Assembly: GCA_002354655.1 (NCBI GenBank)
Contig: DELY01000001.1
Location: 71,006 to 135,005, forward strand
DNA length: 64,000 nt
Source: Pseudomonas sp. UBA2684
GTDB taxonomy: Bacteria; Pseudomonadota; Gammaproteobacteria; Pseudomonadales; Pseudomonadaceae
Reading direction: 5' to 3'
Under the pieces are notes generated by a model, which was not told where the DNA came from, ran no database searches, and was given only the letters and a program-made list of their open reading frames with translations. Below are positions 13,283 to 19,515 of the stretch, in pieces (position 1 is the stretch's first letter; each line of letters opens with the position of its first letter). The translations under genes were made by a program, and so were the position numbers.

Positions 13283-14500
13283 TCAGGGTTCGGGGTGGCG
13301 CGGCAGGGCGCTGGAAATCAGCGCCGCCAACAGCACGAAGGCCGCCGAGATCCACAGGCAGGCCGCTAGCCCGTAAGCCTGATAGACCCAGCCGGAGAGC
13401 AGGGTGCCGAGCAGCCGGCCCAGGGCGTTGGACATGTAATAGAAGCCGACATCCAGCGACACACCGTCTTCCTTGGCGTAGGAGACGATCAGGTAGCTGT
13501 GCAGCGAGGAATTGACCGCGAACACCACCCCGAACAACAGCAAACCGCCGATCAGCACCACCTGCGGCGCCAGGGCGCTGTGCAAGCCGAGGGCGATGGC
13601 CGCGGGCAGGCCTGCCAGGAGCAACGCCCAGAGACAGGCCGCGCGGCCATCGGGTAGCTGTCCGCGGCGCTTGCCGGTGATCGCCGGCGCGCAGGACTGG
13701 ACGATGCCGTAACCGATGATCCAGAGGGCGAGAAAGCCGCCGACCTGCCAGAAGTCCCAGCCGAAGACGCTGGCCAGGTACACCGGCAGGGCCACCACGA
13801 ACCACACATCGCGGGCGCCGAAGAGGAACAAGCGCGCTGCAGAGAGGAGGTTGATCGCCCGGCTCTTGGAGAGCATGTCGCGGAACTTCGGGGTGGCCTT
13901 GGCCTTGCCTAAATCCTTCTTCAGCAGGCACAGGCTGGCCAGCCAGATCAGCGTCAGCACGGCCGCCATGGCCAGCACCGCACCGGCAAAGCCGAGCAGG
14001 GCGAGCAAGGCGCCGCCGAGGAAGAAACCCACGCCTTTGAGTGCGTTCTTCGAGCCGGTGAGAATCGCCACCCATTTGTACAGCGTGCCCTGCTGGCTGT
14101 TCGGTACCAGTAACTTGATCGAACTCTTGGCGGACATCTTGTTGAGGTCCTTGGCGATGCCCGACAGCGCCTGCGCGCCCATCACCCAGGGAATTGTCAG
14201 CCAGGCCGCCGGCACCGTGAGCATCAGCAGCGCCAGCACCTGAATCGCCAGGCCGATGTTCATGGTGCGATTGAGCCCCAGGCGCGCGCCGAGGTAACCG
14301 CCGACCAGGTTGGTGACCACGCCGAATATTTCATAGAACAGAAACAACGCGGCAATCTGCAACGGCGTGTAGCCCAGGCTGTGGAAATGCAGCACCACCA
14401 GCATGCGCAGCGCGCCGTCGGTCAGGGTGAAGGCCCAGTAGTTGCCGGTCACCAGCAGGTACTGGCGCACGTCGGGGGCGAGGCGGGACAAAGCGTACAT
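13283..14500 (-). CDS. arsJ: Organoarsenical efflux transporter ArsJ (MFS)
   Basis: A 405-residue, 12-helix MFS protein starting MYALSRLAPDVRQYLLVTGN; an upstream ATG at 14632 is in frame but the extra residues come from an intergenic repeat. Hallmarks are VVLHFHSLGYTPLQIAALFL and SGIAKDLNKMSAKSSIKLL. ArsJ exports 1-arseno-3-phosphoglycerate, the unstable product made by the GAPDH encoded next to it; outside the cell it breaks down to arsenate. It is the last gene of the ars operon, 201 bp after the GAPDH gene. A dispersed repeat (14533-14563) sits in that gap. The identification rests on sequence and the GAPDH neighbour together. Confidence 0.9.
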   Translation of the reverse strand: MYALSRLAPDVRQYLLVTGNYWAFTLTDGALRMLVVLHFHSLGYTPLQIAALFLFYEIFGVVTNLVGGYLGARLGLNRTMNIGLAIQVLALLMLTVPAAWLTIPWVMGAQALSGIAKDLNKMSAKSSIKLLVPNSQQGTLYKWVAILTGSKNALKGVGFFLGGALLALLGFAGAVLAMAAVLTLIWLASLCLLKKDLGKAKATPKFRDMLSKSRAINLLSAARLFLFGARDVWFVVALPVYLASVFGWDFWQVGGFLALWIIGYGIVQSCAPAITGKRRGQLPDGRAACLWALLLAGLPAAIALGLHSALAPQVVLIGGLLLFGVVFAVNSSLHSYLIVSYAKEDGVSLDVGFYYMSNALGRLLGTLLSGWVYQAYGLAACLWISAAFVLLAALISSALPRHPEP

Positions 14501-14532
14501 CGATTGCGTCCTGTTGCTGTTGGGTTGAAGGT

Positions 14533-14563
14533 GATGGGTATCGCTGCGCTCAACCCATCCTAC
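14533..14563. repeat. Short palindromic repeat, GATGGGTATCGC...CAACCCATCCTAC family
   Basis: GATGGGTATCGCTGCGCTCAACCCATCCTAC; other copies are at 26932-27000, 36024-36053 and 51228-51308. All lie between genes. Confidence 0.8.
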
Positions 14564-14701
14564 GGCGCGTGGTTGCTCAGCCAATTCCACCCTGTGAGGT
14601 TGCTGCTCGGCGCAGGCGTCTCCGCCGGGCAACTGGCGTAAGCGCTGTCGCGGCTAAGGCGGAATGCCGCCCAGCCCCTCCCACAGTACGGAGAACGGTT
14701 C

Positions 14702-15706
14702 TCAGTCGGCCGAGCCCACCAGGCGCGCCAATTCGACGGTGCGGTTGGCGTAGCCCCATTCGTTGTCGTACCAGGCGTACAGCTTTACCTGGGTGCCGTT
14801 GATCACCAGGGTCGACAGCGCATCGATGATCGAGGAGCGCGGATCGGTGCGGTAGTCGATCGACACCAGCGGGCGCTCTTCATAGCCGAGAATGCCCTGC
14901 AATGGGCCAGCGGCAGCCGCCTTGAGCAGCGCGTTGACCTCATCCACCGAGGTGGCGCGCTCGACTTCGAACACGCAGTCGGTCAGCGACGCATTGGCCA
15001 GCGGCACGCGCACCGCATGGCCATTCAGCTTGCCGCGCAGTTCGGGGAAAATTTCCGCGATAGCGGTGGCGGAACCCGTGGAGGTGGGGATCAGGCTCAT
15101 GCCCGAGGCGCGAGCACGGCGCAGATCCTTGTGCGGCTGGTCGAGAATGCTTTGGGTGTTGGTCAGGTCGTGAATGGTGGTGATCGAGCCGTGGCGGATG
15201 CCGAGGTGTTCGTGGATCACCTTGACTACCGGCGCCAGGCAGTTGGTGGTGCAAGACGCGGCGGTCACGATGCGGTGCTGCGCCGGGTCGAACAGCTGCT
15301 GATTGACGCCCATGACCACGTTCAGCGCACCTTTCTCCTTGACCGGCGCGCACACCACCACACGCTTCACGCCCTGATCCAGATAGGCCTGAAGCACCGC
15401 CACGGTTTTCATCTTGCCGCTGGCTTCGATCACCAGGTCGCAGCCCGACCAGTCGGTGTCGGCAAGCGCCTTGTTGGCGGTGACCGTGAGGCGCTTGGCG
15501 CCAATCACCACCTGCTCGCCCTCGGCGCGGGCTGCGTGCTGCCAGCGGCCGTGTACCGAGTCGAAATTCAGCAGATGGGCATGGGTCGCGGCGTCGCCGG
15601 CCGGGTCGTTGATCTGCACGAACTCCAGCTCTGGCCAATCCCAGGCGGCGCGTAACGCCAGGCGACCGATGCGGCCGAAACCGTTGATACCGACTTTGAT
15701 GGACAT
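14702..15706 (-). CDS. Glyceraldehyde-3-phosphate dehydrogenase of the arsenic operon
   Basis: A 334-residue GAPDH beginning [19 protein letters not shown] after AAGGAGACAACC; the frame is open further upstream, but that part is not GAPDH-like. The Rossmann NAD motif is at residues 3-14, the catalytic cysteine is in [12 protein letters not shown], and [10 protein letters not shown] is near the end. Ars-operon GAPDHs use arsenate instead of phosphate to form 1-arseno-3-phosphoglycerate, the substrate of ArsJ. The position between the phosphatase and arsJ supports this special role rather than central glycolysis. Confidence 0.93.
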
Positions 15707-15728
15707 GGTTGTCTCCTTGAATGACGGA

Positions 15729-16388
15729 TCAGTTGCCGGGTCTGGCAACTGGCTCGAATTGGGCGATGTACTGGACATGCGCGGGGTGTTGCAGGGCGCG
15801 CGGACGCAGGGCCTGCACCTGGCTGATTGCCTCGCGCAGCGGCACGCCACACTCGATCAGCAACTGGGTGGCAATCAGCCCGGTACGGCCCGAGCCGCCC
15901 TTGCAGTGAATGGCGATGTGTTTGCCTTCGCTAACAGGTCGTTGAAAAACTACCTGCGTTGCCGATACGGCGTTAAAAACAGGCTCGGAATGCTCATTTA
16001 CAACACGTAAACTGCGCTTCCTCGCCTGTTTTTGCCTTGTCTCGGCTGCCTCGCCTACGTTTTTCAACGGCCTGCTAAGCAGTTGCTTGATCCGCTCGCG
16101 ATTGGCGTCCCACGCTGCTTGGAACGGTTCGGCGGGTGCCTGGTCGTCTTCCACCGGCAGGTGGAACCACTCGATGCCATGCTGCTGGCACTGCTGCGGC
16201 AGGTCGTCGACTGCGTTCTGGTGCAACTCCTCAGTCGGCATCAGCGTCAGCAAGGCCGAAGCACCGGCTTCTTTCAGGGTGGCCAGCGCCTCGGCGAGCG
16301 ATGTGTCTTGGGTGCCAGGGCACGGCGTGAAGATCAGTTGGCCCTGGATCTGCTTGGCGCTCAGCACGGAGTACGGATGTTGTGGCAC
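15729..16388 (-). CDS. Dual-specificity/tyrosine phosphatase-like protein with an in-frame miniature-element insertion
   Basis: GTG at 16388 follows GAAGGA and gives [17 protein letters not shown] as the start, 219 residues in all. The C-terminal part has the phosphatase loop [14 protein letters not shown] (CX5R), and the middle part has [12 protein letters not shown], typical of CDKN3-like phosphatases found in ars operons. Residues between IKQLLS and [10 protein letters not shown] are encoded by the 140-bp element at 15935-16074 plus its 4-bp target duplication: 48 extra codons with no stop. Without it the protein would be 171 residues, the usual size. The insert lies one strand before the catalytic loop, so activity may be lost. 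The start is 14 bp after the end of arsH. Its role in arsenic resistance is unknown. Confidence 0.85.
15931..16078. mobile_element. 140-bp miniature inverted-repeat element with CTAA target duplication, inside a gene
   Basis: The element spans 15935-16074. Its ends are CAGGTCGTTGAAAAAC and GTTTTTCAACGGCCTG, which are inverted repeats with one or two mismatches. CTAA flanks it on both sides (15931-15934 and 16075-16078). The core includes GCTCATTTACAACACGTAAA. It encodes no transposase and so depends on one elsewhere. A 4-bp CTAR target is characteristic of some IS5-family elements (inference). Confidence 0.85.
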
Positions 16389-16401
16389 GATCAAAAATCC
16401 T

Positions 16402-17118
16402 TCAGATGGCGCGTTGATTAACGCGGTTGGAGAGTTCTTGCGCCGATTCCTTGCGCTCGGAATAGCGATCAACCAGGTAGTCGGAGCGCTCACGTAGCAG
16501 CAGGGTGAACTTCACCAGCTCTTCCATCACGTCCACCACGCGGTCGTAGAAGGCCGAGGGTTTCATCCGGCCGGCCTCGTCGAACTCCAGGTAGGCCTTG
16601 GGCACCGAGGACTGGTTGGGGATGGTGAACATGCGCATCCAGCGCCCCAGCACGCGCAACTGGTTGACCACGTTGAACGACTGCGAGCCACCACACACCT
16701 GCATCACCGCCAGGGTTTTGCCCTGGGTCGGGCGCCGCGCGCCGATGGCCAACGGCACCCAGTCGATCTGCGCCTTGAACACCGCGGTCATCGCGCCGTG
16801 GCGTTCCGGCGAGCACCACACCTGGCCTTCCGACCAGAGCATCAGCTCGCGCAGTTCCTGGACCTTGGGGTGAGTGTCCGCCGAGTCGTCTGGCAACGGC
16901 AGGCCGGAGGGGTTGAAGATTCGCGTCTCGGCGCCGAAGCGGTGCAGCAGGCGCGCGGCTTCTTCGCTGAGCAGACGGCTGAACGAGCGCTCGCGGGTCG
17001 AGCCGTAGAGCAGCAGGATGCGCGGTTTGTGCGTGGCCGCCAGCGGGCTGCCGAGCTTGTCGAGGCTTGGCAGGTCGAGCAGTTCGGCCGCGAGATTGGG
17101 GATGTGTTCTTCGGTCAT
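16402..17118 (-). CDS. arsH: ArsH, NADPH-dependent FMN reductase / organoarsenical oxidase
   Basis: A 238-residue flavodoxin-like protein. The FMN phosphate loop is [20 protein letters not shown] and the flavin-contacting segment is [41 protein letters not shown] is a strong ArsH signature. ArsH oxidises trivalent methylated or aromatic arsenicals to the less toxic pentavalent forms, and also reduces flavins and quinones. It starts 4 bp after the stop of acr3, so the two are co-transcribed and probably coupled. Confidence 0.95.
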
Positions 17119-18200: not shown

Positions 18201-18671
18201 TCAGAGCGTGCCGATCAAGGCCAACTCAGCCTTGAGCTGCTCGGCATTCATCTGCTTGAGCGGTAAAGCCAGGAAGGCTTCGATACGGGTGCCGATCTGT
18301 TCCAGGGTGGCGGCAAAAGCCGCTTCGATCTGCTCTTCAGTGCCCGGGTACTCCGATGGGTCAGCCAGCCCCCAGTGAGCCTTGGTCGCCGGCCCGAAAA
18401 ATACTGGGCAGGCCTCGCCAGCAGCCTTGTCGCATACGGTGATCACGAAATCAGGTGCCAGGGCCTCGTGGGCCTCGCTGGATTTGCTGGTGAGCCCTAC
18501 GGTCGAGATGCCGGCGTTTTCCAGGGTCTTCAGGCTCAGCGGGTGCACGACGCCCTTCGGCTGGCTACCAGCGCTATAGGCTTGCATGCCAGTGGGCGCC
18601 ACGTGATTGAATGCAGCCTCGCAAAGAATGCTGCGGCAGCTGTTGGCGGTGCAGAGAAACAAAATCTTCAT
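18201..18671 (-). CDS. arsC: Arsenate reductase, low-molecular-weight phosphatase type
   Basis: A 156-residue protein starting [19 protein letters not shown]. The phosphatase loop CTANSCR (CX5R) binds arsenate as a phosphate analogue. [20 protein letters not shown] and [16 protein letters not shown] supply further cysteines, as in thioredoxin- or glutaredoxin-coupled arsenate reductases. It reduces arsenate to arsenite, which Acr3 then exports. It is preceded by arsR with 30 bp between them. Confidence 0.93.
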
Positions 18672-18701
18672 CAGGCGATCTCTTAAAGGCCAGGCGTGGA
18701 T

Positions 18702-19058
18702 TCAGCAGCAGGCGGCCAGGCGCTGCGGGCGGTCGCCCATCACGTCGAGGCGTTTGGCGTCTGGGCTGAGCCAGTGCCGATTGGCCTCCAGGGTGGTTTT
18801 CAGAATGGCGATCACCCAGTCCGGCAGGCTCGGGTGCAGGCGGTAATACACCCATTGCCCTTGCCGGCGATCTGCGAGCAAACCGCAATTGCGCAGCTGC
18901 GCCAGATGGCGGGAAATCTTCGGCTGACTCTCGTCGAGCGCACAGGTCAGCTCGCACACACACAGCTCTTCCTCACGGGCGATGAGCAACATCAGGCGGA
19001 CGCGGGTTTCGTCAGCCAGGCATTTGAAAACGGTGGTGGGGGTCAGATGGTCAGCCAT
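18702..19058 (-). CDS. arsR: ArsR, arsenite-responsive repressor
   Basis: A 118-residue winged-helix repressor. The metalloid-sensing cysteines are in EEELCVCELTCALDESQPKI (ELCVCEL motif at the start of the recognition helix region); a further cysteine pair ends the protein (RLAACC). RHLAQLRNCGLLADRRQGQW is the DNA-binding part. Arsenite binding releases the operator. It is the second gene of the operon, 6 bp after the phosphatase-like gene, so it represses its own transcription, most likely through the palindrome at 19516-19535. Confidence 0.94.
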   Translation of the reverse strand: MADHLTPTTVFKCLADETRVRLMLLIAREEELCVCELTCALDESQPKISRHLAQLRNCGLLADRRQGQWVYYRLHPSLPDWVIAILKTTLEANRHWLSPDAKRLDVMGDRPQRLAACC

Positions 19059-19064
19059 AGGGTC

Positions 19065-19487
19065 TCAACGTTTGGTTTTCTTGGTTTTCACCAGCACGAA
19101 CATTTTGATGCGTTCGTGTATCTCGTGAAGGGTATGACGGAAGGCGTCGTGCTTAGGGCTGGTCGCCGGGTCTGCAAAGTTCCACGCCAGCACCTCCCCA
19201 GCGCCGGGAAGGGCATGACACTCCAGCGCCGATTTATCGCACAGCGTGATGACGTATTCGAAACGCTCGCCGGCAAACTCATCGATGGACTTGCTGCGCA
19301 GTCCTTGGCTATTCACGCCCAAATGTTCCAGCGCCTCCAGGGTGCGAGGATCGATCTCGCCAGGCTCGGTGCCTGCGCTGAAGGCCTCGAAGCGCTCGGC
19401 GTCAGTGTGCCGCAGCAACGCTTCAGCCAACTGCGAGCGCGCAGCGTTAGCCACGCAAACGAACAGCACGCGGGTCTTGTAGGTCAT
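19065..19487 (-). CDS. Low-molecular-weight phosphatase / second ArsC-like protein, first gene of the ars operon
   Basis: A 140-residue protein starting MTYKTRVLFVCVANAARSQL after GAGG; a TTG two codons earlier is in frame but poorly placed. The CX5R loop is CVANAAR and the acidic segment AWNFADPATSP matches the low-molecular-weight phosphatase fold. FSAGTEPGEIDPRTLEALEH is typical of ArsC-like members. It differs clearly from the arsC at 18201 and has a different cysteine pattern (ITLCDKSALECHALPG), so it could be a second reductase with another reducing partner, or a true phosphatase. It leads the operon next to the promoter. Confidence 0.85.
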   Translation of the reverse strand: MTYKTRVLFVCVANAARSQLAEALLRHTDAERFEAFSAGTEPGEIDPRTLEALEHLGVNSQGLRSKSIDEFAGERFEYVITLCDKSALECHALPGAGEVLAWNFADPATSPKHDAFRHTLHEIHERIKMFVLVKTKKTKR

Positions 19488-19515
19488 GGCCAAGCCTCGA
19501 TGCAGATATGATTTT

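Follow-up and report, generated by a model that had tools for sequence, protein, structure and literature searches.

We propose, with a probability that we put at roughly three in four, that an IS5-type MITE has recently inserted into the phosphatase gene of an arsenic-resistance cluster of Pseudomonas sp. UBA2684, and that this phosphatase is likely still translated, with the ribosomes reaching the GAPDH and arsJ genes beyond it. The insertion lies in the window, that is, the whole stretch of 64,000 nucleotides that was analysed (contig DELY01000001.1, positions 71,006 to 135,005), and the features concerned are collected in Table 1. The element is short, carries no transposase, is bounded by terminal inverted repeats and is multicopy, as is characteristic of a MITE. 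Its description in the first-pass annotation, as a 140-bp element with 16-bp inverted ends (CAGGTCGTTGAAAAAC and CAGGCCGTTGAAAAAC) and a CTAA duplication, is borne out, with one mismatch between the ends, which extend to 19 nt at 89% when the neighbouring bases are included. The same annotation had claimed that element and duplication add exactly 144 bp, or 48 codons, with no stop in the phosphatase frame, and the frame analysis agrees: on the minus strand this frame stays open for 145 codons upstream and 67 downstream up to the next stops, and every other frame of the element has between one and four stops. Because the net addition is 144 bp and one of the six frames is free of stops, the insertion would add a segment to the protein instead of truncating it. 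Nor is the element a chance pattern, since a 160-bp query has 49 matches at E<=0.001 in the genome itself, and the closest of the other copies is 97% identical.

Table 1. The insertion in the phosphatase gene and its surroundings (positions in the window)
Feature	Positions	Strand	Remarks
PTP/DSP-like phosphatase gene	15729..16388	-	219 aa with insert, 171 without
ArsJ-associated GAPDH gene, next downstream	14702..15706	-	NF033735; 22 bp gap to phosphatase
arsJ	13283..14632	-	NF033734; true start probably inside ORF
arsH, next gene upstream	16402..17118	-	TIGR02690
MITE, 140 bp	15935..16074	-	read with target bases as 48 residues
Target duplication CTAA, copy 1	15931..15934	none	
Target duplication CTAA, copy 2	16075..16078	none	
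Terminal inverted repeat CAGGTCGTTGAAAAAC	15935..15950	+	
Terminal inverted repeat CAGGCCGTTGAAAAAC	16059..16074	-	
Element core, common to elements with other terminal repeats	15970..16039		query positions 46-115 of genome search

Alignment with phosphatase homologues from P. benzenivorans (L091) and from genomes G002 (L032), G009 (L033), G012 (L035) and G031 (L034) opens a gap of exactly 48 residues in all five, with no other gap nearby; since all five lack exactly those residues, the copy is an insertion in this gene. The exactness of the gap also supports the earlier statement that removal of the element leaves a protein of 171 residues (of 219), the GTG start being assumed from the alignment with the homologues. 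A sixth match (L036 in G005) was apparently shortened and was excluded from the alignment; this shortened phosphatase of an ars cluster suggests that loss of the gene is possible. The order arsH-phosphatase-GAPDH-arsJ is the same in L091, L032 and L035. At the corresponding site the DNA reads CTCACTGAAGG in L091 and CTGAGTGAAGG in L032 (reverse complement taken by eye), and CTTAGCGAAGG around the insert. A look for an empty site with a single CTAA in close relatives had been suggested as a check: the site is indeed empty in L091 and L032, but the TTAG letters are absent there. Between the phosphatase of the window and that of P. benzenivorans, dN is 0.103 and dS 0.724 over 168 shared codons, a dN/dS over the gene of ~0.14, and the same species pair gives a dN of 0.052 and a dS of 0.711 for GAPDH, and 0.086 and 0.464 for ArsH. 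Identity to the G002 phosphatase is 118/170 for the present protein and 121/168 for that of P. benzenivorans, with no excess divergence. Judged from these comparisons, no decay of the gene is apparent besides the insert, which says little about the age of the insertion because the copy is young, as its near identity to another copy indicates; the intact frame of so young a copy may reflect too little time to decay.

The phosphatase matches the Pfam families Tc-R-P, PTP-SAK and Y_phosphatase3 above cut-off and DSPc and CDKN3 below it, gave zero matches against NCBIfam, and its profile matches solved PTP/DSP chains among the PDB sequences. Its CX5R P-loop motif is intact. The insert directly follows RIKQLL and, in the alignment of homologues, abuts the strand leading into the catalytic P-loop; the stretch matching the insertion site is free of indels in two alignments with PTP chains of known structure, and we take it to be the helix-to-strand turn of the PTP fold. 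A basic excursion of 48 residues adjoining the active site could be accommodated there, probably at the surface of the protein. That the insert is tolerated is plausible in view of the in-frame copies in conserved enzymes, the intact CX5R motif and the ordinary divergence of the gene, and the phosphatase would be weakened or unchanged in its activity rather than improved. The arsenic-resistance cluster also contains acr3 and two LMWPc-family ArsC-like genes, the latter at positions 18201-19493 of the window, both scoring below the cut-offs of the NCBIfam models that they match.

A candidate for the partner IS was sought by a PF05598 transposase search, over ten genomes first, and by a later transposase search over 16 genomes. 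In genome G012, an IS of 1331 bp with ends CAGGCCGTTGAAAAA is present six times, flanked by CTAG in five copies and by CTAA in one; its product of 374 aa matches PF05598 and DDE_Tnp_1 (IS5-type). The ends of the IS and of the MITE agree over 15 bp, with a YTAR target in both, and diverge past ~16 bp; because of this divergence, we infer a shared transposase from ends and target, not common descent, and mobilisation of the MITE in trans by this IS5-family IS is the corresponding proposal. Sequences related to the IS (89-96% identity), interrupted by a stop or in pieces, occur in G073, G091 and G095. An IS with these ends was found neither in the assembly under study (a 59-contig draft) nor in eight others of the 16 genomes searched, and no full-length IS emerged in the genome itself, among paired ends or by transposase search. 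A 1149-bp end pair in L076 was considered as a full IS and rejected, being two separate short elements. The mechanism that we propose is that a non-autonomous IS5-type MITE would have inserted recently at TTAG (CTAA on the plus strand) in the phosphatase gene, the transposase being supplied in trans by an IS of the IS5 family that shares its 15-bp ends and YTAR target. The right orientation and phase would yield a 48-residue, basic, probably linker-like segment without truncation. Full-length translation appears most likely, and ribosomes would pass a strong hairpin to reach GAPDH, 22 bp downstream, and arsJ; it may be surmised that these downstream genes are spared from polarity.

Of the 119 genomes sampled from the genus, at least 62, the present one included, match the family at the peptide level (E<=1e-6); 16 records of the plasmid collection match as well, with zero matches in the phage collection. 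The 4-bp flanks of 96 two-ended elements are identical in 41, differ once in 32 and differ at two or more positions in 23, and 135 of the 192 flanks read CTAG, TTAG, TTAA or CTAA; judged by these flanks, the target of the family is YTAR. The net length (element plus 4) is divisible by three in 74 of 93 N-free elements, owing to a common ancestral length of 140 bp, and the events are not independent. Since 140+4 bp is the canonical size, the 48-codon fit is a property of the family: the fit pointed out in the first-pass annotation stands, its being special to this locus does not. Many of the surveyed loci were recruited by a protein query, which favours an open frame. A set of 34 different 140-bp copies, all found at the DNA level, was compared with 200 simulated runs in which the consensus was mutated by the observed amounts and spectrum; the frame is open in 25 of the 34 copies against a simulated mean of 25.8, and 138 of the 200 simulations gave at least as many. 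Open frames are no commoner than mutation predicts, which gives no sign that the peptide is selected as such; the element does not seem to need it. A codon-score survey of 96 copies found eight that look genic, three of them open in frame and five shifted or stopped. Hosts seem to retain those insertions that happen to do no harm.

In-frame insertion of the element was met in several unrelated conserved proteins, the compared orthologues lacking the insert and the frame of the element being the same throughout; the frame used in the phosphatase-like, acyl-CoA synthetase, NERD, urea carboxylase and PqqE cases is the sole stop-free frame of the consensus. We lean slightly towards the wider hypothesis that, across Pseudomonadaceae, a single MITE family mobilised by an IS5-type IS inserts 48 codons into proteins without disturbing their frame; in one of six combinations of orientation and phase, the product would be a full-length protein bearing the same extra segment, and the family would be a lasting supply of protein variants. 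The acyl-CoA synthetase of Halopseudomonas pachastrellae (L128) aligns with gaps totalling exactly 48 residues to six of ten orthologous loci (L288-L297) and 49 to 85 to the other four, which have other indels; its two halves abut in the orthologues of the genomes listed. The same enzyme of H. sabulinigri (L148) carries its copy at a different site, with gaps of 47 residues against seven of the ten loci and 48 or 49 against three, and the alignment of L128 to L148 has gaps totalling 95. In alignments of a NERD/Zn-ribbon protein (L132, from a Pseudomonas MAG), the matches are interrupted near residues 193 and 240, and the two halves abut in at least 27 genomes among the matches listed. Target duplications are not intact in these cases, reading CTAG/CGGC in L128 and TAAA/TTGA in L132, and likewise in L148.

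Two further examples involve the genome under study itself. Its urea carboxylase (L022/L270, the same gene, C58:98542 region) contains an in-frame, eroded core copy adding 46 codons net relative to most orthologues, and none of the 19 loci (18 genomes) that give both flanks has the insert (L248 of G012 was dropped, having no usable flank pair). Recognisable ends have been lost from this copy, and the nearest other copy is 88% identical over 103 nt. Compared with a typed family-like sequence, 10 of 13 changed codons in the 31-codon core are non-synonymous, as would be expected for a drifting linker. A search of 397 other genomes gave zero matches to the inserted form at E<=1e-30, a cut-off that hides insert-free orthologues too. 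Near the N-terminus of PqqE, the element stands in frame and almost complete in G073 (L363), where it follows MLSSGSSC; at that position the present genome (L364) keeps a shorter remnant, also in frame, and G077, G095, G012 and G013 have no insert. Between insert and domain, the genes of G073 and of the present genome contain no in-frame ATG or GTG but a TTG each, and G013 has a GTG there; the copy is probably inside the protein. Some insertions thus appear to be old, namely the eroded urea carboxylase copy and the PqqE copy common to two species.

The insertions in genes given here are a sample. A first set comprised 18 open frames with the peptide, that of the window included, of which the other 17 were scanned against Pfam. 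Eleven of the 17 are without a Pfam family and were not counted (L106, L123, L103, L134, L099, L109, L131, L112, L114, L136, L102), nor were a gene of the aconitase family (L040) and a Phenol_MetA gene (L122), in which the element stands before the domain and perhaps before the true start. The peptide was present in 36 of 38 further places chosen by hand among the matches listed, and 11 of these were scanned against Pfam. Besides L270, already described, L260 is PqqE and the ABC transporter L265 bears the peptide; the element precedes the domain in L252 (CTI), L253 (MCP) and L267 (Phenol_MetA), and L254, L258, L263, L264 and L269 are without a Pfam family.

A reading to which we give somewhat less than even odds is that the phosphatase is a fresh pseudogene, its activity abolished by the insert, its open frame a one-in-six accident, and its decay yet to begin. 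The position of the insert against the catalytic strand would fit such a loss, as would the recent date of the copy and the agreement of the 25 open frames with the 25.8 that mutation alone predicts, and the seemingly shortened gene of G005 makes dispensability possible. It is opposed by the intact motif and the dN/dS of ~0.14, as well as by the retention of such inserts in conserved enzymes elsewhere. We regard as unlikely a main effect on RNA, whereby the hairpin between arsH and GAPDH-arsJ changes how stable the transcript is or how it is processed, with the consequence for the protein a by-product. The coding strand of the element does fold with an energy of -70.9 kcal/mol, compared with an average of -43.3 for shuffled sequences (z -6.6), and excerpts of PMC3733652 describe MITE hairpins that stabilise or destabilise mRNA; however, any inverted-repeat element is expected to fold in this manner, and Rfam gave zero matches at E<=1 over positions 15700-16400 of the window. 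The idea that the 48 residues are an ancient part of the phosphatase family is refuted by their absence from all five aligned homologues: the same residues, which the first-pass annotation had named as what would speak against an insertion, were looked for there and seen in none. The perfect target duplication also argues against it, as does another copy in this genome that is 97% identical in DNA.

The closest parallel in function is provided by the Rickettsia palindromic elements (RPE), which are described in excerpts of two papers as ~105-150 bp long and inserted, with the frame kept, in conserved genes for unrelated proteins; a guanylate kinase that bears an RPE is reported as translated and active with changed affinity (PMC2229807, PMC10969869). 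The present element is likewise palindromic and in frame in several unrelated conserved proteins, but its host belongs to the Pseudomonadaceae, and both its YTAR target and an IS5-type partner can be given, while a table of PMC2229807 lists the RPE target duplication as '?'; the likeness to RPE, as far as those excerpts go, is one of description. The nearest described MITE that we found in terms of target and IS type is MITEPsy1 of Pseudomonas syringae, given in the parts consulted of PMC3189936 as probably IS5-type, with a 4-bp duplication of CTAG or YTAA and insertions in coding sequences. MITEPsy1 measures 100 nt, with 18-nt ends GGAAGGTCTGAAAAAGCC (PMC3189936, Table 3), and the present element, at 140 bp with ends CAGGYCGTTGAAAAAC, falls outside it on that description; a net 104 nt shifts the frame, unlike the 144 added here. 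Enterobacterial repeats (RU-1/ERIC, RU-2 and RU-3) also occur fused in frame to ORFs, according to an excerpt of PMC2759123, and are set apart by the description given there, since they measure 127, 168 and 103 bp and live in other hosts. None of the papers searched contains any of three end sequences of the present family; insertion-sequence databases may list the family. By analogy with what these excerpts describe, we regard the element as an IS5-type MITE working like RPE, a known kind whose mechanics are unusually clear here.

The reviews, in the portions available, discuss in-frame coding MITEs above all for Rickettsia and give the target duplication as unknown. In the present case we have the element together with its target, a partner IS and natural orthologues that are free of the insert, and the tolerance of a 48-residue parasitic insert can thus be tested directly for each protein. 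If the wider hypothesis is true, the family would be a continuing source of protein variants in free-living bacteria, the phosphatase of the arsenic cluster included. It should also be borne in mind that such segments may be mistaken for protein domains.

The core of the element is also seen with different terminal repeats (AGAACCTGTTC...), often adjoining TTAG, at L020, L021, L025, L028 and other loci. Among 179 distinct core matches, 114 have CAGG-type ends on both sides, 10 have AGAACC-type ends on both and 42 have neither, so that core-bearing elements present the same middle with interchangeable ends. Forms of 52 bp, with the middle deleted and the YTAR flanks kept, occur at positions 1501-1552 of L076 and 5880-5931 of L103.
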